64,000 nucleotides of DNA from a virus: the IMG/VR virus record IMGVR_UViG_3300036398_001591, positions 18,556 to 82,555 of that record, one strand, 5' to 3'. Shown here piece by piece: positions 3,740 through 60,894 of the stretch; within the stretch, counting starts at the first letter, position 1, and each line of letters starts with the position of its first letter. Made by a program: the position numbers and the translations under genes. The notes under the pieces are model-generated. The model made no database searches, was not told where the DNA came from, and saw only the letters and a list, made by a program, of their open reading frames with translations.

Positions 3740-4216
3740 TTAAACTTGAGTTATTTCTACTCCTGCTTTCTCCAAGAATCGAAGGCCCGCATCAGAACGA
3801 TAACTATTACGATAATACACAGAATTGATACCACTTTGATAAACAAGTTTGGCGCAATCAAGGCAAGGGGCATGAGTAACAAAGAGAGAAGCACCGTTGC
3901 CAGACTCAGTGCTTTTTGCGAGTTTTGCGATGGCGTTGGTTTCTGCATGAAGTACCTCCGGTTTTGTTACAAGTTTATAACGAAGCCATGGAAGATTTTC
4001 AGTTTTTGGTAACTGTTGTTCAGACCAGTCTCCATCATCACAATAAATTTTATCTTCACAAACATTATCCCAACCAGAGGGCATTCCATTGTAACCAATA
4101 GAAATGATGCGGTCATCTTTTACGATAATCGCACCAACATGAAGTCTCACGGCAGACGAAAGACTCGCAAAAGTCTCTGCGGTTTTCATATACGCATCAA
4201 TAAATTTTTGTTTCAC
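3740..4216 (-). CDS. cd: dCMP deaminase
   Basis: 158 residues, the usual size. It converts dCMP to dUMP, feeding thymidylate synthesis. The zinc-dependent deaminase signature is complete: HAE at 90-92 (ligand and catalytic glutamate) and PCLDC at 117-121 (two cysteine ligands), with the substrate-side motif GYNGMPSG at 41-48. T4 gene cd encodes the same enzyme. The start overlaps the stop of the SGNH hydrolase gene by 4 bases, indicating translational coupling. Confidence 0.92.
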   Translation of the reverse strand: MKQKFIDAYMKTAETFASLSSAVRLHVGAIIVKDDRIISIGYNGMPSGWDNVCEDKIYCDDGDWSEQQLPKTENLPWLRYKLVTKPEVLHAETNAIAKLAKSTESGNGASLFVTHAPCLDCAKLVYQSGINSVYYRNSYRSDAGLRFLEKAGVEITQV

Positions 4217-4626
4217 TTAGTTTGTTCCGCTAATATCTTATAACCTTTACCCGTTGGATGAATACCATCGGCACTCATGTTACCAACAGGCCTTAAAAGT
4301 ACAACATCACCATATTCTTTTGCAATTTTTGTCATTGCTTCATGCGGAATAGGTTTGCGGTCTTTTCCCGGATCAATCCAAAAGACACGTTTGCCTTTAA
4401 TTGCTTCACGCATCTTTCTCAGTTCTTGTTCCGTTTTCACACCTTTGTGGTCATTTGCACCAAGGCTGATAATGATTGTTTCATAAGGTTTTGTGGTAGA
4501 CTGGCTCAAGTAATCTTTATTCCACTGCCAACTATTCCAACCACCTTTAGAATAAGAAACACATTCTTTACGAACCATTGAAACACCAACGGCGATAGAA
4601 TCACCTATAATCATGCAATCAATCAT
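4213..4626 (-). CDS. SGNH/GDSL-family hydrolase
   Basis: 137 residues, a minimal single-domain SGNH hydrolase. Block I is IGDSIAVG with the nucleophile S10, block III is LGAND (N58), and block V is DGIHPTGKGY with D120 and H123. These enzymes deacylate or deacetylate esters, often on carbohydrates. There is no signal peptide, so any action on host surface glycans would need release at lysis; cytoplasmic action is equally possible. Start and stop overlap the neighbouring rubredoxin and dCMP deaminase genes by 4 bases each. The substrate is unknown. Confidence 0.85.
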   Translation of the reverse strand: MIDCMIIGDSIAVGVSMVRKECVSYSKGGWNSWQWNKDYLSQSTTKPYETIIISLGANDHKGVKTEQELRKMREAIKGKRVFWIDPGKDRKPIPHEAMTKIAKEYGDVVLLRPVGNMSADGIHPTGKGYKILAEQTK

Positions 4627-4757
4627 AGCGTTTCGTATTCGTCTTTACCAACACCACATTCTGGACACAAAAAGTCATCAGGTAAAGTATCCCATGCGCC
4701 TTCTAGTTCCTCATCGTGGACATGTCCACATACTACACATACATGATCCGGACTCAT
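4623..4757 (-). CDS. Rubredoxin
   Basis: A 44-residue ORF below common length cut-offs. It carries both knuckles of a one-iron rubredoxin: CVVCGHVHD (C7, C10) and CPECGVGKDEYE (C31, C34), with the expected W22 and LPDDF between them. It would hold a single Fe(Cys)4 centre and pass electrons in the cytoplasm. It lies directly after rubrerythrin with a 4-base ATGA overlap and before the SGNH hydrolase with another. Rubrerythrins usually carry this domain fused at their C-terminus; here the two parts are separate genes, so it is probably the electron donor of that enzyme. Confidence 0.9.
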   Translation of the reverse strand: MSPDHVCVVCGHVHDEELEGAWDTLPDDFLCPECGVGKDEYETL

Positions 4758-5203
4758 AGTGCCTCCAATACTTGTTTATACGCATTTGCGTGGCGTTCTT
4801 CAACTTTCTTCAATGCAGTGAAACGCTTTTCAGCTTTTTCTAAAATTGCTTTGAATGCTTGTGCATGTTCGTTAGATTCACGACCCTGTTCGTTGAATTC
4901 TTTTACAGCTTCAATGTTTTGTTCAGCTTTAGCAATTCGTTCAAACTGTGGATACATTTCCGTAAACTCATAGGTCTCACCTTCGATAGCAAGTTCTAAG
5001 CATTCTTTAGTAGTTGGTTTACCAACCAACAATTCTAAATGACCCCATGCGTGTTTAATTTCTTGGTCGGCGGTGTGTTCAAAGTGTTTAGCAACTTCCT
5101 CAAAACCTTCTTCACGTGCCAACTTTGCAAAATAGCGATACTTGATATGTGCCATAGACTCACCAGCCAATGCACTCTCAAGATTTTTTAAAGTAATAGA
5201 CAT
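4754..5203 (-). CDS. Rubrerythrin (ferritin-like diiron domain only)
   Basis: 149 residues starting MSITLKN after AAGGAAAAAA, the better ribosome site; a longer reading frame upstream runs through tRNA-Arg and is rejected. Diiron ligands are visible in both helical pairs: E15, then E48-x-x-H51, E94, and E136-x-x-H139. Rubrerythrins reduce hydrogen peroxide to water using reduced rubredoxin. The fused C-terminal rubredoxin domain of classic rubrerythrins is missing and supplied by the next gene. An oxidative-stress role during infection is an inference; iron handling is an alternative. Confidence 0.9.
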   Translation of the reverse strand: MSITLKNLESALAGESMAHIKYRYFAKLAREEGFEEVAKHFEHTADQEIKHAWGHLELLVGKPTTKECLELAIEGETYEFTEMYPQFERIAKAEQNIEAVKEFNEQGRESNEHAQAFKAILEKAEKRFTALKKVEERHANAYKQVLEAL

Positions 5204-5217
5204 TTTTTTCCTTATTT

Positions 5218-5292
5218 TGGTCCGGCGTACAGGAATCGAACCCATATTCGGGGCTTAGAAGACCCCTGTATTATCCATTATACGAACGCCGG
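5218..5292 (-). tRNA. tRNA-Arg (anticodon TCT), separate from the cluster
   Basis: Acceptor CCGGCGT pairs with ACGCCGG, then A and CCA. Anticodon stem GGGGT/GCCCC encloses CTTCTAA, giving TCT (AGA). It lies between the 5298-5582 gene and rubrerythrin, so it is co-transcribed with protein genes. Confidence 0.92.
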
Positions 5293-12508: not shown

Positions 12509-13864
12509 TTACCGTCCTACTTGCGGCAAATATTTGGATTTGGTTTCTTCCCAAGTCATGTAAACCAGGTCGTCATAGAAAAGAGTTTCATATGAAACAT
12601 TGTTCTTCTTTTGCAGTTGGCGAATACGACCTTTGGCATATTTGTTCTTCCAGAGTTCCGAAAGGGCTTCTTCGGAAGTGTCGAACGACTTAATGAGTTG
12701 GTCTTCCGTGATTTCTCCACGGAGAAACTCATTGGTATTATTGTAGAGTGGTGAGAAGTAGATACCACGTTGGTGCGCTGTACGTGTCAACTCTTTTGGA
12801 ATACCAAGTTTCGGGTACAAGAAGTGTAGTGAACGATTCTTGTGGTCACGTTTGAAAGGAAGACCCTTATCATTCTTGGCTTCCCACCACTCAAAGTATT
12901 TCTCTGTGTGGTTTTCTTTCAGCCAATTCCAAAGCATGTTTAGCGTAGACTTACGGGGTTCGAAAGCAACCGAACCAGATGAGAAACCCATTTTATTCCA
13001 GTGTTCAAGGCCATCGTACTGAGAAAGACCACCAGACTTAGTATTTCCATATAGAGAAGTGGTTGTAACACCGGCAAGAACATCACCGTACTTTTCTTTC
13101 CACAAACGTTGAACTGTGTCAGAGAGGCAAAGCAATGCAAGAAGTTTACCGCCCATGTAATTGAAACCGAGAGGCTGAAGTGGAACAATAGATGAACCGA
13201 TTGCAGTATGATTAATCATACCACCTTGAGTTTTCTTTTCACGTTCCCAACCAATAGCGGTATCACGTGGTGTCAAATCTAGGAAATCGGAAGAAATACA
13301 AACGACACCAAGGTACTTACCAGTCACATCATCTTTGACAATGAAGTTGAGATTGCGACCAATGTTTGAGTTGTTCTTCATCGTGGAGATAAAGGTACGT
13401 GTCGTGTTCCATAATATAGGAAGGTCTTTGGTGCGCTTTTTGTCGCTTTTTATGGTCGTACCGTCAATTCCTGTCGTGATTTTGTGTCCGGAGTCATCAG
13501 TGAATTCCATAACAGGACGCAAGTTCATAAAGTCATCAGGTGATTCTGGTATCCAGATGTTGCTCTTAGCAATGTCGATGTACTTACCCTGTTCTTCGTC
13601 AACAAGAACCTTCTCATCACCCCAAAAAGTGTTGTTTGTTTTTGTGGGAAACTTTTCTTGGATTTCACACCACTTCTGAAACAAAGTATATTCTTTAACG
13701 TCCATGTTGGACGCATAGGTCAAATCTTCTGTGAGAACTTTTTTCAGTTCTTCGGTATCAACATGTTCAAATGAACTTTTTGGATTCTTTTCGGACCATT
13801 CTTCCCACTGTTTCTGCACATGTGTGGGCCACTTTTCGTTCTCAATATCAGAATCGTTTGACAT
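12509..13864 (-). CDS. DUF4338 (DruA-like) protein
   Basis: 451 residues. The segment FNYMGGKLLALLCLSDTVQR (235-254), then EKYGDVLAGVTTTSLYG, matches the core of the DUF4338 family, to which DruA of the Druantia antiphage system belongs (recognised by motif, not by search). Rich in Trp and charged residues, soluble. In phages such proteins stand alone, without the DruE helicase, so a defence role is not implied; involvement in DNA or RNA metabolism is unproven. It overlaps the peptide deformylase gene by 17 bases. Confidence 0.6.
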   Translation of the reverse strand: MSNDSDIENEKWPTHVQKQWEEWSEKNPKSSFEHVDTEELKKVLTEDLTYASNMDVKEYTLFQKWCEIQEKFPTKTNNTFWGDEKVLVDEEQGKYIDIAKSNIWIPESPDDFMNLRPVMEFTDDSGHKITTGIDGTTIKSDKKRTKDLPILWNTTRTFISTMKNNSNIGRNLNFIVKDDVTGKYLGVVCISSDFLDLTPRDTAIGWEREKKTQGGMINHTAIGSSIVPLQPLGFNYMGGKLLALLCLSDTVQRLWKEKYGDVLAGVTTTSLYGNTKSGGLSQYDGLEHWNKMGFSSGSVAFEPRKSTLNMLWNWLKENHTEKYFEWWEAKNDKGLPFKRDHKNRSLHFLYPKLGIPKELTRTAHQRGIYFSPLYNNTNEFLRGEITEDQLIKSFDTSEEALSELWKNKYAKGRIRQLQKKNNVSYETLFYDDLVYMTWEETKSKYLPQVGR

Positions 13865-14486
13865 TAAATTTTTCTTTCACCTTGTTAATCATCATTTTTT
13901 GCATCTTGCGTCTTTGCTCGGCAAGTTTAGAACGCTTCTTCATTGCCATTTGCATAGCCAAGGGCTTCACATGCATAGTGTACACTATTCCGTTCATGTG
14001 GTCAAGTTCATGTTGGAAGCAACGTGCAGTTATTCCGGCAAACTTTGCTGTTTTGGTAGCACCGGTGAAATCTTGGTATTCAACTTCAATTACGGATGGA
14101 CGTTCAATGTTTAGGAATAAATCCATATAAGAAAGGCACCCTTCTTCCATTCTGGTTGTTTCTTCTGAAACAGAAATGATTTTTGGATTAAAGAATGCAA
14201 CGTATTCATCACCTGAACCCATAACAAACACACGATAGTTGTACCCACATTGGTTTGCGGAAAGACCCAAACCATTGTATTTCTTACAAGTTTCAACAAG
14301 TGAACTGGCAAATTCGGCCGGATTAACTGGTGGATTAGCAAAGTCAAACTCCGGTAGTTTGGATTTTAATTCGGGATGAGTTTCAGGTACGAGAGGAAAA
14401 ATTTCAATCTTTTTGGAGATTGTAGGTAAATCTTTTTTCCAAGAATCGGTATCAATTACTAAAACATCTTTTTTTACATCATTCAT
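13848..14486 (-). CDS. def: Peptide deformylase
   Basis: 212 residues. All three motifs are present: GLGLSANQ (72-79), EGCLS (115-119) and QHELDH (158-163) with C117, H159 and H163 as metal ligands and E160 as catalyst. It removes the N-formyl group from new proteins. Phage deformylases are known from marine T4-like phages, where they speed processing of phage or photosystem proteins. Here there is an N-terminal extension of about 50 residues and a basic C-terminal tail (KKRSKLAEQRRKMQK). It overlaps gp46's stop by 4 bases. Confidence 0.93.
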   Translation of the reverse strand: MNDVKKDVLVIDTDSWKKDLPTISKKIEIFPLVPETHPELKSKLPEFDFANPPVNPAEFASSLVETCKKYNGLGLSANQCGYNYRVFVMGSGDEYVAFFNPKIISVSEETTRMEEGCLSYMDLFLNIERPSVIEVEYQDFTGATKTAKFAGITARCFQHELDHMNGIVYTMHVKPLAMQMAMKKRSKLAEQRRKMQKMMINKVKEKFNVKRF

Positions 14487-36614: not shown

Positions 36615-36830
36615 TCATTCAATCACAGCAGTGTTATTGATAATTTTCATGTTTCCTACACAGCAAATATTGCGTTTTTCCACGCCATTTTCATAAGTAA
36701 CCTCATCAAAAACAGGCACCTTTATGTTCAAGTTTCTGACGAGTATCTCATTTCCATTTTCAAAGACTCTCCAATATAGTTCAGAACTACCGTGTTTGGT
36801 ATTGAATCTTATATGGTAACGGTTTTTCAC
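36615..36830 (-). CDS. Conserved small phage protein
   Basis: 71 residues. YHIRFNTKHG, LYWRVFENGNEILVRN and PVFDEVTYENGVEKRNICC form a pattern found in many T4-like marine phages; beta-rich, soluble, function unknown. Its start overlaps the stop of the APS-kinase-like gene by 4 bases, so the two are coupled. Confidence 0.75.
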   Translation of the reverse strand: MKNRYHIRFNTKHGSSELYWRVFENGNEILVRNLNIKVPVFDEVTYENGVEKRNICCVGNMKIINNTAVIE

Positions 36831-37618
36831 TTCAACCCCATTCCCTTACGAATTTTGGTTGCTGAGATTGAATGTGTTGCGTCATCAAAAACTTCTTGCT
36901 CAATCTTATAACCAACATCTCGGCCGTAGGTTATATTAACGATGTTTGGAACGATTTGAATCTCATATTGACCTTGATATAACATATCTAGGTCACGTTT
37001 GATGAAACCCTTTACCTGTTCAATAGCAAATGGATTGCTTCCTTGCCACCCTTGACAGTCGCGTATTTGAATAACAACTTGACCCGTTTTAGCAATAGAA
37101 CGTTCAAACAATTTACGGTGTCCTTCATGCCATGGTTGCCAACGACCTAGCATTTGTACTGTCTCTTTTTGCCAATCAAAAACTGGTCTACGCCGATTGT
37201 CATATATATGTGCGGCAATGAACTCACCCCATTTTTCACCGTGCTGTTCTGTGATTCTAAAATCATATACTTCAGGAGGAATGAAGGCTTTGTTAGTGTC
37301 TTCAAAACGACCTTTGTCAATGGTGTCAACCCAAACAGTCCAATCTGCTTTAAAGTTGTTACGCATCTCAACTAAAGGTGCAACAAAGTCACATATAACA
37401 TAATCATACTCTGTCATTGAATCTGCAAGTTCTCGCATACGATGACTTTGACGGATCCGACCTTCGTGGCTAAAGTCCCAATCATTGTATTTTTTACGAA
37501 CATCGTCAGCGTTGAGCCAACCCACTTTTTTCTTTTCGTTTTGTAAATGTTCTAGTATGTGTTGTGCTAGATAAGTTTTGCCTGCACCAGGTAAACCCAT
37601 AATTAAAATCTTTTTCAT
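36827..37618 (-). CDS. APS-kinase-like / nucleotidyltransferase fusion
   Basis: 263 residues, two domains. N-terminal 1-130 resembles adenylylsulfate kinase: P-loop GLPGAGKTY (8-16), WLNADDVRKKY, FSHEGRIRQSHRM and CDFVAP with a following Arg. C-terminal 150-263 is a nucleotidyltransferase: GRWQPWHEGH with HEGH at 164-167 and ISATKIRKGM at about 251-260. The first could make PAPS or phosphorylate another small substrate; the second resembles NMN or cytidylyl transferases. It is near a sulfotransferase gene (40408), which would need PAPS. Confidence 0.8.
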   Translation of the reverse strand: MKKILIMGLPGAGKTYLAQHILEHLQNEKKKVGWLNADDVRKKYNDWDFSHEGRIRQSHRMRELADSMTEYDYVICDFVAPLVEMRNNFKADWTVWVDTIDKGRFEDTNKAFIPPEVYDFRITEQHGEKWGEFIAAHIYDNRRRPVFDWQKETVQMLGRWQPWHEGHRKLFERSIAKTGQVVIQIRDCQGWQGSNPFAIEQVKGFIKRDLDMLYQGQYEIQIVPNIVNITYGRDVGYKIEQEVFDDATHSISATKIRKGMGLK

Positions 37619-42330: not shown

Positions 42331-42338
42331 TATTTATC
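42331..42338 (-). promoter_or_regulatory. Candidate late promoter of the glycan cassette
   Basis: Minus strand GATAAATA followed by TTTT, one base from the T4 late consensus, between the RCC1 gene stop (42334) and the ATG at 42302. It suggests late expression of the modification enzymes. Confidence 0.6.
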
Positions 42339-45300
42339 CTTTTAAAACTGCTGTTGTGTGAGTTCCACCAGCCGATACTGCGGTCCATGAACTGGAACCA
42401 ATTTGCACCGGAGAAGATCTGGAGGTAGTTGTTCCATCACCCAATCGACCTTGATAGTTTTGGCCCCAAGTGAATAACGTACCACCAGACCTAATTGCGG
42501 CAGTGTGAGCATTACCGGCCGCCACCACAGTCCATGAACTGGAACCAATTTGAACTGGAGAAGATTTGTTGACTGTTGTTCCATCACCTAATCGACCATA
42601 ATTTCCACTACCCCATGTGAACAAACGTCCATCTGATCTAATTGCGGCAGTATGGGAGTCGCCAATTGATACTGCGGTCCATGAACTGGAACCAATTTGA
42701 ACTGGAGAAGATTTGACGACTGTTGTTCCATCACCTAATTGACCTAAAGTGTTTCTACCCCAAATGAATAATAATCCATCAGATCTGATTGCGGCAACGT
42801 GTCTACCTATGAAGCCACTATTCACTGCGGTCCATGAACTGGAACCAATTTGCACTGGAGAAGATTTGGCGACTGTTGTTCCATCACCTAATTGACCATA
42901 AGTTCCATTACCCCATGTGAACAAATATCCATCAGATCTAATTGCGGCTGTGCTATTTTGTCCAGCCGATACTGCGGTCCATGAACTGGAACCAATTTGA
43001 ACTGGAGAAGATCTGTCGCTTGTTGTTCCATCGCCTAATCGACCACTATTTCCAGCACCCCATGCAAATAATAATCCATCAGATCTGATTGCGACAGCGT
43101 GAGTTGCACCAGCCGCCAGCGCAGTCCATGAACTGGAACCAATTTGAACTGGAGAAGATCTGTCGATCGTTGTTCCATCGCCTAATCGACCATAAAAGTT
43201 TCTACCCCAAGTGAATAATCTTCCATCAGATCTAATTGCAATGCTGTGTTGCTCGCCATTACCTACTGCCGTCCATGAACTAGATCCTGATTGTCGTGGA
43301 GAAAATTCCGATGATGGTATAATGATATTGCCACCAACTAACGTTAATGTGTTGACGGCTGTAAAAGTGGTTATACCAATACCTGCTTGTCCCGCCGAGT
43401 TGGTCCCGATTGCATATAAACGATTATTCGCCGCAATCACATTTGTGTGTGAACTAGACGATACCGCAGTCCATGAACTGGAACCAATTTGAACTGGAGA
43501 TGAAGAACCTGCCAAACCGCCGCTACCCCATCCAAATAATTTACCATCAGAATTAATTGCGGCAACGTTCGATTCACCAGTCGATACCGCAGTCCATGAA
43601 CTGGAACCAATTTGAACTGGAGAAGATCTAGCGGATGCTCGTGTTCCGTCACCTAATTGTCCTGTGACATTACTGAAACCAAAATTGCTACCCCATGTGA
43701 ACAAGTATCCATCAGATCTGATTGCTGTCATAAATTGGTCGCCAGCCGAGACCGCAGTCCATGAACTGGAACCAATTTGAATCGGTGAGGACCTGTCAAA
43801 CAAAATACCTTGGCCACCCACTACGATGGGTGATGCCTCAGTAAAACTGACAGGAGAAGTTCTTGAATTGCCTAGAGTACCATATGGGTTTGTACCCCAA
43901 ATGAATAATATTCCATCAGATCTGATTGCCGAAGTGTGAGTAAAAGAACTTGCGGGCACCGCAGTCCAAGAACTGGAACCAATTTGTACCGGAGAAGATC
44001 TGGAGGTAGTTGTTCCGTCACCTAATTGAGAGTTAATGTTTCTACCCCAAGAAAATAACTTACCATCGGATCTAATCGCCAAACTGACTTGGCCATTACT
44101 GGTCGATACCGCAGTCCATGAACTGGAACCAATTTGCACTGGAGAAGATCTGTTGAGTGTCGATGAATTACCTAATTGACCTTGTTGACCAAGACCCCAA
44201 CTGAATAATATTCCATCAGATCTAATTGCAAGATTGGTGTAGCCGATTTGATTTGATACCGCAGTCCATGAACTGGAACCAATTTGAACTGGAGAAGATT
44301 TGGCGACTGTTGTTCCATCACCTAATTGACCTTGGGCTCCGGCACCCCAAGTGAATAATAATCCATCAGATCTGATTGCGACATTGAATGCCGCACCAGC
44401 CTGCACCGCAGTCCATGAACTGGAACCAATTTGCACTGGAGAAGATTTGGCGACTGTTGTTCCATCGCCTAATGTGCCGGTAGTTCCTATACCCCATGTG
44501 AATAATAATCCATCAGATCTGATTGCGGCAGTGTGAGCTTGACCGGCCGCTACCGCAGTCCATGAACTGGAACCAATTTGAACTGGAGAAGATTTGTTGA
44601 CTGTTGTTCCATCACCTAATCTACCATTTGTTCCAGCACCCCAAGCAAACAAACGTCCATCTGATCTAATTGCGGCAGTGTGTGAATTACTAGCCGATAC
44701 TGCGGTCCATGAACTGGAACCAATTTGCACCGGAGAAGATCTGGAGGTAGTTGTTCCATCACCCAATCGACCTTGATAGTTTCTACCCCAAGTGAATAAT
44801 AATCCATCAGATCTGATTGCGGCAGTGTGAGTTGCACCAGTCGATACCGCAGTCCAACTAAATATAGTTGATGCGGGTCCTTCAGCTTCAGTGGTAAGTT
44901 GGCCAAAAAAATTGCTACCCCATGCAAATAATAATCCATCAGACCTAATTGCGGCAGTATTCAAAAAGCCGCCAATATCCACCGCAGTCCATGAACTGGA
45001 ACCAATTTGTACTGGAGAAGATTTGGAGACTGTTGTTCCATCACCTAATTGACCTGAAGTGTTTCTACCCCAAAGAAATAATAATCCATCAGACCTAATT
45101 GCGGCCGTATTGACGCCGCCAGCCGATACTGCGGTCCATGAACTGGAACCAATTTGTACTGGAGAAGATTTGCCAATAGTTGTGTTATCGCCTAATTGAC
45201 CATAGTTGTTTCTACCCCAAAGAAATAATCTTCCATCAGATCTAATTGCAGCCGAAAGATAAGTACCTGCCGATACTGCGGTCCATGAACTGGAACCAAT

Positions 45301-45747
45301 TTGTACTGGAGAGGCTATAAATGGAAGTGTGCTACCCTCACCTAATTGGCCTAGGTTGTTTCTACCCCAAGTGAATAATAATCCATCAGATCTAATTGCG
45401 ACAGTGTGTGAATTTCCACCCGCAACCTTTGTCCAATTATAAACATCTGTAGGTCCAGTGAAAACACCCAATTGATAAAATGTGTTATTACCCCAGACAT
45501 ATAAAAAACCTGGTCCTGGTGGGCCTATTGTACCTATGGCCGCAAACATTGTGCCAATATCCACACCACCACTTTGAAAACTTGTGGTACCAAAAGCTGT
45601 GCCACCATTAGCTACACTGTAGTAATAGTTAGAAATGTCGGTGCCACCGACTGTGTAATTCACATCGGCTCTTTTTGAAGACCCGCCTATTGGTTCAAAG
45701 AGCGTATCTAGGTCAGCACCGGTAACTCTAAAACTTGTGGTTGGCAT
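42334..45747 (-). CDS. RCC1-repeat beta-propeller virion protein
   Basis: 1137 residues. The N-terminal 75 hold three copies of a short motif (VTGADLDTLFEPIG, VGGTDISNYY, SGGVDIGTMFAAIG). From residue 81 to the end are RCC1 repeats of about 50 residues: W-T-A-V-S-A-G...A-I-R-S-D-G-x-L-F-x-W-G-x-N..G-Q-L-G-D-G-T-T..S-S-P-V-Q-I-G-S-S-S. Twenty complete units plus one split between the N-terminal FLYVWGNNTFYQLG and C-terminal WTAVSAGGTHTTAVLKG give 21 blades, as for three seven-bladed propellers. It lies next to tail fibre genes, so a fibre tip or host-binding protein is likely. No catalytic motif. Confidence 0.88.
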   Translation of the reverse strand: MPTTSFRVTGADLDTLFEPIGGSSKRADVNYTVGGTDISNYYYSVANGGTAFGTTSFQSGGVDIGTMFAAIGTIGPPGPGFLYVWGNNTFYQLGVFTGPTDVYNWTKVAGGNSHTVAIRSDGLLFTWGRNNLGQLGEGSTLPFIASPVQIGSSSWTAVSAGTYLSAAIRSDGRLFLWGRNNYGQLGDNTTIGKSSPVQIGSSSWTAVSAGGVNTAAIRSDGLLFLWGRNTSGQLGDGTTVSKSSPVQIGSSSWTAVDIGGFLNTAAIRSDGLLFAWGSNFFGQLTTEAEGPASTIFSWTAVSTGATHTAAIRSDGLLFTWGRNYQGRLGDGTTTSRSSPVQIGSSSWTAVSASNSHTAAIRSDGRLFAWGAGTNGRLGDGTTVNKSSPVQIGSSSWTAVAAGQAHTAAIRSDGLLFTWGIGTTGTLGDGTTVAKSSPVQIGSSSWTAVQAGAAFNVAIRSDGLLFTWGAGAQGQLGDGTTVAKSSPVQIGSSSWTAVSNQIGYTNLAIRSDGILFSWGLGQQGQLGNSSTLNRSSPVQIGSSSWTAVSTSNGQVSLAIRSDGKLFSWGRNINSQLGDGTTTSRSSPVQIGSSSWTAVPASSFTHTSAIRSDGILFIWGTNPYGTLGNSRTSPVSFTEASPIVVGGQGILFDRSSPIQIGSSSWTAVSAGDQFMTAIRSDGYLFTWGSNFGFSNVTGQLGDGTRASARSSPVQIGSSSWTAVSTGESNVAAINSDGKLFGWGSGGLAGSSSPVQIGSSSWTAVSSSSHTNVIAANNRLYAIGTNSAGQAGIGITTFTAVNTLTLVGGNIIIPSSEFSPRQSGSSSWTAVGNGEQHSIAIRSDGRLFTWGRNFYGRLGDGTTIDRSSPVQIGSSSWTALAAGATHAVAIRSDGLLFAWGAGNSGRLGDGTTSDRSSPVQIGSSSWTAVSAGQNSTAAIRSDGYLFTWGNGTYGQLGDGTTVAKSSPVQIGSSSWTAVNSGFIGRHVAAIRSDGLLFIWGRNTLGQLGDGTTVVKSSPVQIGSSSWTAVSIGDSHTAAIRSDGRLFTWGSGNYGRLGDGTTVNKSSPVQIGSSSWTVVAAGNAHTAAIRSGGTLFTWGQNYQGRLGDGTTTSRSSPVQIGSSSWTAVSAGGTHTTAVLKG
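42351..45410 (-). repeat. Coding tandem repeats of the RCC1 gene (about 150 bp unit)
   Basis: About 20 copies of a unit containing the almost invariant block AGTCCATGAACTGGAACCAA with its flanks (plus-strand reading; some copies have GGTCCATG). The DNA of this block is far better conserved than the rest of the unit, which implies recent expansion or gene conversion. Confidence 0.9.
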
Positions 45748-45756
45748 TTAAAATTA

Positions 45757-46044
45757 TTATTCTTGTGTAGGTTCTTCAGCCGGTGGTTGAGGAATTTCTA
45801 ATATATCTCTGTGTTCATACACTTCACCATTTTCTACGGTGTAATTTAGGTAATCCGACATTTTATGAGTTGCTGGATTGAATTCTGTTGTATCTCTAAT
45901 GATCTTAACGAATTCGTTTTCCCTCATAAAGTTTTCGTCAACTTTACATTTCAAGTCGAAATTATCATTGCCATTCCAATTTTTAGGTAACAGGTCATAA
46001 ACACCTTTTATTTCACCATCAATTAAATTTGCATATACTGTCAT
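45757..46044 (-). CDS. Small tail-fibre-associated protein
   Basis: 95 residues. [20 protein letters not shown] at the start then [19 protein letters not shown]; similar small proteins sit next to fibre genes in T4-like marine phages and may be fibre assembly or attachment factors. The C-terminus is Pro/Glu-rich ([11 protein letters not shown]). Starts with a 4-base overlap into the preceding collagen-like gene. Confidence 0.6.
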
Positions 46045-48806
46045 TTTTTTCCTCCTAATGAATCAGTGTTATCTAATAAAATATTTATCTTCTTTTCCAA
46101 CTCTTTTATGGAGCCTTGTTGTTCTTTAATTGCTTCAATTAGTAAACCAATAATGCTGTCATATGAAAGTGACATAGTACCGTTTTCATTTGTGTTTACA
46201 ATTTCTGGAAGTATTTTTTCCACTTCTTGAGCAATAACACCTATTGATTTATTTCCGTTGTCTTTCCATGTAAAACTTACACCTCTCATCTGCAACACTT
46301 TATACATAGCATCTTCTAACGTATGTATATTTTCTTTAGTATTTACGTCAGACAGTGTGTTGAAAATTGTGGCATTCAGTGTGCCTGTCGAAGGATTAAA
46401 ATACAATTTCGTACTGCTTGCTTCAGCAGTTTGATTCGATCCAACTCCAGCAACAAATACTGGGTAATGGTTGGCGTTAGTTGTGCTTTCTTCTGCCGCA
46501 TTAATTGTCGTAGAAGGTCCTGCTGGTCCGATTGGTCCGATTGGTCCAATGGGTCCTTGTGGTCCAGCGTTGCCTATTGGACCAATGGGTCCTTGTGGTC
46601 CAGTATTACCGATGGGTCCAATAGGTCCGATTGGTCCAATGGGTCCTTGTGGTCCAGCGTTGCCTATTGGACCAATGGGTCCTTGTGGTCCAGTATTACC
46701 GATGGGTCCAATAGGTCCGATTGGTCCAATGGGTCCTTGTGGTCCAGCGTTACCAATTGGTCCGATTGGACCTTGTGGTCCTGTTGCACCTCTTTGACCG
46801 GCAGCAGTAATTGTCCACGATGAAGCCGAAGTTGTACCAATATTAAAATCTGCCGCAATAGCAAAAGTTGTTCCACCAGTTATAGTTACTGTGCCCTCAA
46901 AGAAGTTTGCTACCGTGTTAACGGCACGAACTCTCGAACCGGTAATAAATGCGCCTTGTGTATTTGTTGTGAGCGTGATAGTACCGGTTGAGGATGGAAC
47001 CGCAGTAGTTGTTGACGTTACACCGTCAAAACCTATTCCGATTGGGCCGATAGGCCCTTGTGGTCCGATGGGTCCAATAGGTCCGATGGGTCCTTGTGGC
47101 CCAATGGGTCCAATAGGTCCGATTGGCCCAATAGGTCCGATGGGTCCTTGTGGCCCAATGGGTCCAATAGGTCCGATTGGTCCAATAGGTCCGATGGGTC
47201 CTTGTGGCCCAATGGGTCCAATAGGTCCGATTGGTCCAATAGGTCCGATGGGTCCTTGTGGCCCAATGGGTCCGATTGGTCCGATAGGTCCTTGTGGTCC
47301 GATTGGTCCAATAGGTCCGATAGGTCCAATAGGTCCTTGTGGTCCAGTTAAACCGATAGGTCCGATTGGTCCTTGTGGCCCAATGGGTCCAATTGGTCCT
47401 TGTGGTCCAGTTAAACCGATTGGTCCAATAGGTCCTTGTGGTCCAGTTAAACCGATGGGTCCAATGGGTCCAATCGGCCCAATTGGTCCTTGTGGTCCAG
47501 TTAAACCGATGGGTCCAATGGGTCCTTGTGGTCCAGTTAAACCGATGGGTCCAATGGGTCCTTGCGGCCCAATAGGTCCAATGGGTCCAATTGGACCTTG
47601 TGGTCCTGTTGCACCTCTTTGACCAGCAATTGTTACAGTCCAAGAAGATGCTGTTGTTGTACCTAAGTTGAAATCTGCGGCAATAGCAAATGATGTGCCG
47701 GTGATTGTGACAACACCTTCAAAAAAGTTTGCAGTTGTGTTTGTTGCTCTTACACGATTTCCTGTTACAAAATCATGGAAAGTTGTGTTAACAATTAATG
47801 TAATTGTTCCTGAGCCTGCTGGGGTAGCAGATGAGGTTGAGGTTACTTGTGAACCTGGTCCTGTTGCACCCGTTGGTCCAGTGTTGCCGATTGGTCCAAT
47901 AGGTCCAATTGGTCCTTGTGGTCCTGTATTACCAATAGGTCCAATTGGTCCTTGTGGTCCTGTATTACCAATAGGTCCAATAGGTCCGATGGGTCCAATA
48001 GGTCCTTGTGGTCCGGTATTACCGATTGGTCCAATAGGTCCTTGTGGCCCAATCGGTCCAATAGGTCCTTGTGGCCCAATCGGTCCAATGGGTCCAATGG
48101 GTCCTTGTGGTCCAGTGTTGCCGATGGGTCCAATAGGTCCTTGTGGTCCTGTAGGACCAATAGGTCCGATTGGTCCAATAGGTCCTTGTGGTCCGATTGG
48201 TCCAATAGGTCCGATAGGTCCGATAGGTCCGATAGGTCCGATAGGTCCAATAGGTCCTTGTGGCCCAATTGGTCCAATGGGTCCTTGTGGTCCAGTTGGT
48301 CCAATATTACCTACAATATCAAACTGAAGCGAACACGGTTCATTCGTATCCAACGGGTTTTCTATACCTGAAAGATATGTTATTCCAAATTGAACATATC
48401 CTGTTTGTGCTGTTACACTATTAATTTGATAAGTAAGAAGTTCGAGAGATCCAAATATTCTTAAATATGCTTTGGGTGTTCCCGTTGAATTGTTAATAGC
48501 CAGTAATGCGGCACGAACATTATCTGATCCACCTGTTAAATCATCAATGTACAACTCTGTAGCTGATGATTGTGTGGCATTATTCAGTCTAAACAAACCA
48601 GTGCCAGGATCCACATTTGTTGTGCTAGAGGAGAAAGTGTAGGGATATCCCGCCGTTTGCCCAGTGGCTCCGGTACTTCCAATGGGTCCTTGTGGACCAG
48701 TTGGACCAAAAGTTCCGGCACCAACCCATTGACCGTTAGCCGCAATAACAAACGTATTGCCTACCGTTAAGCCATTTTTGACTACGAATGTATTTGCTGA
48801 TGCCAA
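46041..48806 (-). CDS. Collagen-like tail fibre with S74 chaperone
   Basis: 921 residues from a TTG at 48806, placed six bases after GGGGAGAG. Short N-terminal head, a globular domain (about 54-166), then Gly-Pro-Gln/Ile collagen triplets interrupted by two homologous beta-domains ([19 protein letters not shown] and [20 protein letters not shown]). The C-terminal 104 residues are an intramolecular chaperone of the peptidase S74 family: S819 in [10 protein letters not shown] is the predicted autocleavage site and [15 protein letters not shown] the conserved helix. The trimer would form a long rod, with the chaperone removed after folding. Confidence 0.92.
46082..46089 (-). promoter_or_regulatory. 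Candidate late promoter before the 95-residue gene
   Basis: Minus strand GATAAATA followed by TTTT inside the last codons of the collagen-like gene, about 38 bases before the ATG at 46044. It would serve the 95-residue protein and the RCC1 gene. Confidence 0.5.
46515..48305 (-). repeat. Collagen-type (GPxGPx) coding repeats in three blocks
   Basis: Blocks at about 46515-46795, 47035-47620 and 47850-48305 consist of 9-base and 18-base units coding Gly-Pro-Ile and Gly-Pro-Gln. Unit boundaries such as [10 protein letters not shown] repeat almost exactly, a substrate for slipped-strand or recombinational length change. Confidence 0.92.
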
Positions 48807-57339: not shown

Positions 57340-60300
57340 TTAAGGGTTTTTTTTCTTCAGTTCTTTTATTTCATTCGACAATTCTTTAACCGCTTCAATG
57401 AGAACGCCAACTATGTTACCATATGCAACTGACAAATATTCGGATTCATTTTCTTTATGCACAACTTCCGGTAAAACCTTTTGAATTTCTTGTGCAATAA
57501 CACCAACACCAGTCCTACCTTCCCGGTCAAATCTTACTCCTCTCATATTTTCGATACACAGGAGAGCATTTTCAATAGTTTGAATATTAGTTTTTAATCT
57601 TTCATCTGAATATGCTGTTATATTACCAGGAGCAGTTAAGTCTCCTGTGCTAGGATTGAATGTGAATGCTGTTGCTGTTGTTCTAACACTCGGTGTTTGA
57701 TTGGAGCCTGCACCCGCAATAAACACTGGATAAAATGTAGCATTTGTTGTTGTATCTGTTGCATTAATTGCAGTTGATGGTCCAATTGGTCCAATCGGTC
57801 CAATGGGTCCGATAGGTCCTTGTGGACCAAGTGGTCCGATGGGTCCAATTGGTCCGATAGGTCCAATCGGTCCGATAGGTCCTTGTGGACCTGTTGGTCC
57901 TGTTAAACCAATTGGTCCGATGGGTCCTTGTGGACCTGTTGGTCCTGTTGGTCCTGCTAGTCCAATTGGTCCGATAGGTCCAATCGGTCCGATAGGTCCT
58001 TGTGGACCTGTTGGTCCAGCTAAACCAATTGGTCCAATAGGTCCTTGTGGTCCTGTGTTGCCTATTGGTCCAATCGGTCCGATAGGTCCTTGTGGACCTG
58101 TTGGTCCAGCTAAACCAATTGGTCCAATAGGTCCTTGTGGTCCAGTTGGGCCAGCTAAACCAATCGGTCCAATAGGTCCTTGTGGTCCTGTTGGTCCAGT
58201 TAAACCAATTGGTCCAATAGGTCCTTGTGGTCCAATTGGTCCAATAGGTCCTTGTGGTCCAATTGGTCCGATAGGTCCAATAGGTCCTTGTGGTCCCGAT
58301 GGTCCAGCTTGACCTGCTCTGGTGAATTGTATCATCACCAAATCACCGTTGGTAAATGAACCTACACCAGAAACGTATGTGAGTGCAACAGTTCTGTAAC
58401 CTGTTGAGTTGGTTACAGTGCCTGTTGCATATACTGCATATTTGGTTGTTGGTGCACCAAATACGGAAAGTCTAATGTATCCTTTAGTTGCACCGTTTGC
58501 TTGACCCCATTCAGTAGTAATTGCAGAAATATCATTACCATATGTGTCAAGGTCATCGAAATAACCAGCAGTTGCAGATCCAGGAACAGCATTGAGCCTA
58601 AAGAAACCTGCACCAGGATCAGAAGCTGTAGTTGTTGTTGAATATTGTTGTGCGACACCAAGAACTGCACCAGAATTCAATACGTTAGCAGAAACTTTTG
58701 CGTTTACATCCAAACGCATCGCATTGATTTGATTAGCTGTAGCGGCTAGTGTTGTGCTTGTGCTTGTGTTCGAGTCATTCAACTGAACAATACCAGCATT
58801 GTTTGTATTTGCTACATACTTTTCAGTAACGATTGTGTAGTAAGTGTTTTGTTCTGCACCTGCGGCACCATTTATGCCACGAATTTTCCATTGTTTGTCT
58901 GCGTTTTCAAACTGAATGTATGCATTAGGTGTGAATGTTGCATTTGTATTTTCACCACGATTGATACCAAAACGTCCAGATTGTGATGCAGTAATTGGTG
59001 TTGAGCCATATAAAGAAAATTCATTCGAATTATAAACTGTACCACCTTCAATAACAAAATTACCCCTAACAGTAAAATCTTTACCAGCAATGATAGAATT
59101 GTTTGCAAAAATATTAGTTGCATTTATAGACGGTGTGTAAATCTCCGTATTAGCTGTCAAGAACCTTGTATTGATATTATCAACAACAGAAATAACTTGT
59201 ACATTCGCAGACTGTAAATTAGCAATTCCGTTGGAGGTTAATCTGTTTGTGTATATGTGTGTGACTGCTGAAATTGAACCAGCATTCAATGTGTTTGCAT
59301 TAGCAACACCGAAAATGTTAGCGGAACCACCAGACAATACTGTATTAGCAGTAATTGTTCCGCCAACTAGACTTGTGTTGGCAATTATCGTGGCAATTCT
59401 AGCAGAACCCGCATCAATACCATTGATTACGTTGGCAGAACCACCGGACAATATTGTATTAGCAGTTAAAGTACCACCAACTAAACTTGTATTGGCTATG
59501 ATTGTGTTGATTCTAGCGGAGCCAGCATCGATGCCATTGATTACATTGGCTGAACCGCCGGACAATACAGTATTAGCCGTTAAAGTACCACCAACCAAAG
59601 ATGTATTAGCAACAAGAATACCAATTCTAGCCGAACCCGCATCAATACCATTAATTACATTGGCTGAACCAACGTTTAGTTGGGTGTTGGCGGTTAAAGT
59701 GCCACCAACCAAGGATGTATTGGCTATGATTGTGTTGATTCTAGCCGAACCCGCATCAATACCATTAATTACATTGGCTGAACCACCAGACAATACTGTG
59801 TTGGCAGTTAGAGTACCACCAACCAAGGATGTGTTGGCTATGATTGTCGCAATTCTAGCAGAGCCAGCATCAATCCCGTTGATTACGTTAGCTGAACCAA
59901 CGTTTAGTTGGGTGTTGGCGGTTAGAGTACCACCAACCAAAGATGTGTTGGCAACAAGAATACCAATTCTAGCAGTGCTTGCATCAATCCCGTTGATTAC
60001 GTTAGCTGAACCAACGTTTAGTTGGGTGTTGGCAGTTAGAGTACCACCAACCAAGGATGTGTTGGCTATGATTGTCGCAATTCTAGCAGTGCTTGCATCA
60101 ATCCCGTTGATTACGTTAGCTGAACCAACGTTTAGTTGGGTGTTGGCGGTTAAAGTACCACCAACTAAACTTGTGTTGGCAATTATCGTGGCAATTCTAG
60201 CGGAGCCTGCATCAAGTAAACCAACAATGTTAGCTGTGCTGGTATTTAACTGTGTATTGGCTGTAATTGTGCCACCGACCAAACTTGTGTTGGCAATTAC

Positions 60301-60894
60301 TGTGGCAATTCTGGCTGAACCAGCATCTAATAGACCAACAACGTTAGCAAATGCGGCATTTATTGCACCATTTGCTGTAAGTGTTGTGGCAAATGTCGTT
60401 GTTGTGTGTGCTAATGGTGTTATGATCCAAGTGTTGGATGTTAAGTTTGCAACTCTTGTATTACCACCAACAACTAAATTGTTTGCAAGTGTTGTGTTAC
60501 CATTAAGGGTAGTATTATTTGCAACATAAAGGCTAGGGCCACCTGCATTGTTTAGACCTGTACCGAGAATTTGTAGATTTGCAATGTTCGCCACACCTGC
60601 AACATTAAGTCCAAGACCTATTGTATTTGCCGCAAAAATTGTGCCTTGAGAAACTGTTAAGTTATTTTGAATAGTTGCAGAAGAACCTGTACCAGTAACT
60701 TGAAAGGAACCTTGAACGATTGCATCATTCGCAACTTGCAAACCAGTTCCGGCGGAACTTACAATGAAAGTGCCGGTATTTTTGGTATAATTGTTTGCAC
60801 CAATATCATTGGTTTCCGCCAATACCCTATTGGTTGTAGTTACCCAATCACCAAATGTGTTGGCATAGTTTAGTGGTGTAATTTGATTAGCCAT
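57340..60894 (-). CDS. Repeat fibre with collagen stalk and S74 chaperone (1184 residues)
   Basis: N-terminal beta-domains, then about ten repeats of [20 protein letters not shown] plus [18 protein letters not shown] (33-36 residues each), then a beta-domain ([19 protein letters not shown]), a collagen-like stalk of [10 protein letters not shown] triplets, and a C-terminal S74 chaperone of 90 residues with S1096 in [10 protein letters not shown] and [14 protein letters not shown]. It is a paralogue in architecture of the 921-residue fibre, sharing the globular domain before the collagen stalk. Likely a trimeric side or long tail fibre. Confidence 0.9.
57780..58310 (-). repeat. Collagen-type coding repeats in the 1184-residue fibre
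   Basis: Gly-Pro-Gln, Gly-Pro-Ile and Gly-Leu-x triplets built from nearly identical 9-base units, with recurring [15 protein letters not shown] blocks. Similar to but distinct in triplet mix from the array at 46515-48305. Confidence 0.9.
59300..60350 (-). repeat. Long coding repeats (about 105 bp) in the 1184-residue fibre
   Basis: About ten units containing codons for [13 protein letters not shown] and ANVINGIDA. Neighbouring units are up to nearly identical over their whole length, pointing to recent tandem duplication. Confidence 0.88.

Follow-up and report, generated by a model that had tools for sequence, protein, structure and literature searches.

A T4-like phage carries overlapping rubrerythrin and rubredoxin genes, which together are the phage counterpart of a bacterial gene pair; the phage-specific changes are a shorter rubredoxin and the overlap itself. 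Judged from sequence, the two proteins probably form a phage-encoded hydrogen peroxide reductase, fed by rubredoxin and reliant on host reductases. The pair lies in the window, a stretch of 64 kb (64,000 nucleotides) out of a virus record of 82,555 bases, in the following arrangement:

4213..4626, minus strand: SGNH/GDSL-like hydrolase (PF13472, 32.7 bits, slightly below the 32.9 cut-off)
4623..4757, minus strand: rubredoxin, 44 aa, CVVC-x20-CPEC with a shortened loop (PF00301 match)
4754..4757, minus strand: overlap of rubrerythrin stop and rubredoxin start, ATGA common to both genes
4754..5203, minus strand: rubrerythrin-family diiron protein (by family), 149 aa (PF02915 match)
5204..5217, minus strand: gap of 14 nt between tRNA-Arg and rubrerythrin, with an AAGGA ribosome-binding-like site
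5218..5292, minus strand: tRNA-Arg (tct), immediately 5' of rubrerythrin

The gene pair and its phage carriers

This map agrees with a preliminary description of the locus in coordinates, strand, protein lengths (149 and 44 aa), the four cysteines and the ATGA overlap. Both family identities are borne out by profile scores above their cut-offs, 64.8 bits against 22.8 for PF02915 (Rubrerythrin) and 35.6 against 23 for PF00301 (Rubredoxin); a PHROGs search gave no useful match. The AAGGA site stands 5' of the rubrerythrin ATG, and in the closest phage relatives a tRNA-Arg likewise precedes the gene. At the other end, a second ATGA (4623-4626) joins the rubredoxin stop to the start of the SGNH-like hydrolase, which follows the pair immediately in 18 of 52 testable phage loci; it is a neighbour of the pair, and a common function is not established. 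The window also encodes an Hsp20 small heat shock protein (PF00011; 7002-7472, minus strand). A homologue precedes the pair in 54 of the 66 phage loci that could be tested, possibly marking a stress-gene neighbourhood.

Other features of the window, all on the minus strand, include 15 further tRNA genes in an array (17-2121) and two long proteins that resemble tail fibres and contain collagen-like GPIGPIGPQ repeats (46041-48806 and 57340-60894). By eye, there are also a 1137-aa protein with many RCC1-like repeats (SSPVQIGSSSWTAV...; 42334-45747), peptide deformylase-like motifs EEGCLS and HELDH (13848-14486), and a single protein in which a kinase-like N-terminus is followed by a nucleotidyltransferase-like GRWQPWHEGH motif (36827-37618). 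In the major capsid protein the virus shares 62.7% identity with Methylophilales phage Melnitz and 62.3% with Pelagibacter phage Mosig, and in the terminase about 56% with cyanophages; these identities mark it as a T4-like phage, as had been proposed.

A peroxide-scavenging system had been called unexpected in such a phage, a view at odds with the wide distribution of the rubrerythrin: a scan of IMG/VR found 539 stretches related to the window rubrerythrin, the best 80 of which are 76-100% identical to it. A second scan, with an alignment as query, gave 80 loci, 43 of them repeating places of the first, so that both scans pooled yield 117 distinct phage loci. The search of related phage genomes proposed along with the preliminary description thus found a CxxC...CxxC frame immediately 3' of rubrerythrin in 114 of the 117. 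Two of the exceptions (L006 and L081) are contigs that stop at the rubrerythrin end or 25 nt beyond it. In the third, L321, a 47-residue ORF is inserted between the two genes and the rubredoxin is present after the insert; this locus (record G006, 235,812 bases) is the only untruncated one with an ORF inside the pair. In 109 of the 114 loci the two genes overlap, by 4 bases in 31 and by 1 base in 78. Comparison with close relatives, where divergence allows it, gives the rubrerythrin a dN/dS of 0.035-0.073, about 0.05, and the gene is under purifying selection. A rubredoxin that follows wherever the contig goes on, the 109 overlaps and the low dN/dS together show that the pairing is not due to chance.

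Could the operon nevertheless be neutral cargo, acquired without benefit to the phage? Rubrerythrins are rare enough among phages to allow the thought, as only 8 records in a set of 50,697 from phages give a match at all and none exceeds 60% identity. However, purifying selection, confinement to a single phage clade, the kept overlap and recurring neighbours make this very improbable. At the DNA level, the neighbourhood of the pair resembles sequenced phages only in patches of 50-60 bases. The open-access literature (subscription journals being outside the scope) yielded no paper on a rubrerythrin-rubredoxin pair in phages; one rubrerythrin has been noted in a silage virus contig (PMC10146946), and rubredoxin-fold proteins have been described in a Vibrio phage (PMC10671443).

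A freshwater betaproteobacterium is the probable host, an assignment that draws on relatives rather than on the window's own record. Eight of these relatives (L074, L077, L059 in record G004, and records G001, G002, G003, G005 and G009) encode a tmRNA above the gathering score of the Betaproteobacteria family, and the G001 rubrerythrin is identical to that of the window. An alphaproteobacterial host was also considered, since RF01849 gives matches, but the beta_tmRNA model passes its cut-off in most records; between these two models the tmRNAs of G006 and G007 are ambiguous, and the window's own record has no RF01849 match. Permuted, two-piece tmRNAs of the betaproteobacterial family occur in L074 (6780-7216, with the tag ANDSQFALAA), L059 (3847-4330), L334, L335, L338, L340 and L341. 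An earlier suggestion of infection under microaerobic or oxidative conditions finds no sign in the sequence, and the bacterial carriers of the pair include ordinary freshwater genera.

Bacterial relatives and other known systems

A search of 84,980 bacterial and archaeal species places the closest cellular rubrerythrins mainly in Burkholderiales and in other Beta- and Gammaproteobacteria, and those of the best 80 loci are 59-69% identical to the phage protein, over the full length in the betaproteobacterial case. In 78 of these 80 loci the rubrerythrin is followed by a rubredoxin gene in the same orientation, and in the remaining two the contig ends less than 180 nt away. Polynucleobacter Pnuc_1376 and Pnuc_1377 (locus tags from PMC3308952) exemplify the betaproteobacterial arrangement, which shares with the phages both E109-S110-x-x-H113 and E135-x-x-H138 as well as a rubredoxin gene directly 3'. 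The two versions differ in the rubredoxin and in the junction. Bacterial rubredoxins are 50-60 aa long, have 29 residues between the CxxC motifs in all 78 cases, and start 10-206 nt past the rubrerythrin stop, with overlapping genes in 1 of 78. Phage rubredoxins have a spacing of 20 (97 loci) or 17 residues (17 loci), a loop shorter by 9-12 residues, and genes that overlap.

The pair had been taken for the classic fused rubrerythrin in split form. This origin is ruled out, as in the bacterial relatives the two genes are already separate. Since Burkholderiales and their relatives hold both genes side by side, the pair has the look of an operon captured from bacteria. Profile scores agree: the rubredoxin matches PF00301 and falls below the cut-off of PF21349, the rubrerythrin-type rubredoxin domain (22.9 against 26.5 bits), and NF045767, the equivalog of the classical fused protein, scores 72.7 bits against a cut-off of 200, the genes being separate. 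A tree built from 61 phage and 37 cellular rubrerythrins separates the two sets by one branch (support 100/100). Because the root is unknown and both samples hold best matches only, the tree suggests rather than demonstrates a transfer from bacteria to phage.

Among described rubrerythrins, the nearest group appears to be the proteobacterial branch of group 5, the 'cyanobacterial-type', whose members in alpha-, beta- and gamma-Proteobacteria are single-domain proteins with no fused rubredoxin domain (Cardenas 2016, PMC5114695). The phage protein is likewise single-domain, and its placement there is by exclusion of group 4. Cyanobacterial members of group 5 such as Anabaena RbrA differ in carrying a fused, long-spaced rubredoxin domain; the only match on a cyanobacterial plasmid is a different rubrerythrin, extended at its N-terminus. 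Sulerythrin and the Burkholderia pseudomallei protein 4DI0, of the aerobic-type group 4, match the phage fold over residues 1-128 at 35-39% identity, but they keep the helix-4 Glu and have no 25-residue extension, and the neighbour genes of group 4 encode DUF3501 and an Fe-S oxidoreductase, not rubredoxin (PMC5114695). The rubrerythrin of Pelagibacter phage Mosig (QOI69103.1), also a T4-like phage, is 41% identical to the window protein; unlike the latter, this marine type has the canonical AExxH helix in 80 of 80 relatives, and a rubredoxin motif nearby was found in none of 81 loci.

The rubredoxin itself retains the expected fold. Its cysteines C7, C10, C31 and C34 (CVVC and CPEC) are invariant in 45 rows, its AF2 model has a pLDDT of 88.9, and the best structural matches are rubredoxins, with Z about 7 and rmsd 1.1-1.5 over 43 residues. 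The short rubredoxin of Desulfovibrio desulfuricans (6RXN; 45 aa) also has a shortened loop and matches with Z 6.9 and rmsd 1.5; it is cellular and 42% identical, and the resemblance does not imply shared descent of the loop deletion. Most phage rubredoxins have histidines at residues 12 and 14, in the motif CGHxH (CGHVH), where the bacterial ones have CG-aromatic-x-Y (CGFIY); this exchange at two aromatic positions could alter the potential or the metal.

The altered fourth helix of the rubrerythrin

The AF2 model of the rubrerythrin (pLDDT 96.1, pTM 0.76) has the ferritin-like four-helix fold, with helices at 3-31, 35-60, 65-93 and 97-148. Residues 1-128 superpose on 9onr, 8fxd, 4di0 (B. pseudomallei) and sulerythrin with Z about 14 and rmsd 1.6-1.9. 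The fourth helix runs unbroken for 52 residues, from 97 to 148, and no solved structure found by sequence covers its extension.

The preliminary description held that all diiron ligands are visible. With ligand positions assigned from D. vulgaris rubrerythrin, an assignment assumed here, this is true of E15, E48, H51, E76, E79 and H113, all kept in register, and needs correcting at the helix-4 Glu: in alignment with sulerythrin, 4DI0 and P. furiosus rubrerythrin, that position is Ser110, within E109-S110-x-x-H113. A canonical diiron site therefore cannot be assumed. A second, intact ExxH (E135/H138) lies in the same helix, 25 residues beyond the first. An alignment of 241 rows, made up of the window with 160 phage loci and 80 bacterial ones and containing 180 distinct sequences, shows no change at S110, H113, E135, H138 and Y142 and a single one at E109; the six ligand positions kept in register, H113 among them, vary little or not at all. 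As both motifs are constant among relatives from phages and bacteria alike, the alignment marks Ser110 and the second ExxH as a trait of a rubrerythrin subfamily and rules out that the active site has decayed in this phage.

The H113 and H138 segments of the window protein resemble each other (score 39, not equalled in 20,000 shuffles), a likeness consistent with helix 4 having been copied in tandem; of two bacterial proteins compared in this way, one shows the self-resemblance less strongly. In nine comparisons the H138 segment is closer to canonical helix 4, with BLOSUM62 scores of 35 to 53, than the H113 segment, which scores 13 to 31; either segment may be the one that binds iron. A more elaborate model, tentative and on balance doubtful, would have the active site rebuilt in a domain-swapped dimer, in which Ser replaces the helix-4 Glu, the second ExxH on the extended helix completes the metal site, and the miniaturised rubredoxin is dedicated to its rubrerythrin.

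The same residues allow another function. The invariant Ser110 at the helix-4 Glu position and the extra invariant E135/H138 could mean that the site is altered and that the pair serves iron oxidation, iron storage or another redox task in place of peroxide removal. However, the other six ligand positions are conserved and the second ExxH may complete the metal site, which makes this alternative decidedly improbable, though less so than neutral cargo.

A putative peroxide reductase in infection

Peroxide reduction by the pair, the favoured reading, has precedents in cells. Works cited in PMC3317640 establish the rubrerythrins of P. furiosus and D. vulgaris as peroxidases that depend on rubredoxin, and that paper and its sources count such peroxidases among the rubrerythrins of anaerobes. 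In the proposed relay, host NAD(P)H-dependent reductases, of the rubredoxin reductase or FNR type, would reduce the phage rubredoxin, which would hand electrons singly to the rubrerythrin diiron site, where H2O2 would be reduced to water. The constant company of the two genes suggests that rubredoxin is the donor. The reductase would be the host's, as ten of ten long phage records encode exactly one rubredoxin each and no Pyr_redox_2 flavoprotein was found in them. For the phage, the gain would be replication shielded in peroxide-stressed hosts, and protection from peroxide during infection is plausible.

Must the electrons pass through rubredoxin? Anabaena RbrA is reduced by FNR without its own rubredoxin domain (PMC6616624), so the rubredoxin need not be the donor, and the ferriperoxin of Hydrogenobacter is likewise FNR-dependent and lacks such a domain (PMC3317640). 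The phage rubrerythrin might similarly be an FNR-dependent peroxidase, with the rubredoxin serving another host acceptor or only assisting. The strict rubredoxin company and stop/start overlap in phages, together with adjacency in bacteria, argue against this possibility, which is unlikely, if less so than a role in iron or other redox chemistry.

If the activity of the rubredoxin-fed pair is confirmed, hydrogen peroxide removal would join the functions that T4-like phages bring to infection, and it would be carried out by a two-protein relay, not a single enzyme, across a large phage clade that probably infects common freshwater betaproteobacteria. The phage protein also offers a natural minimal rubredoxin, and the pair draws attention to the invariant, unexplained second ExxH motif of a rubrerythrin subfamily.
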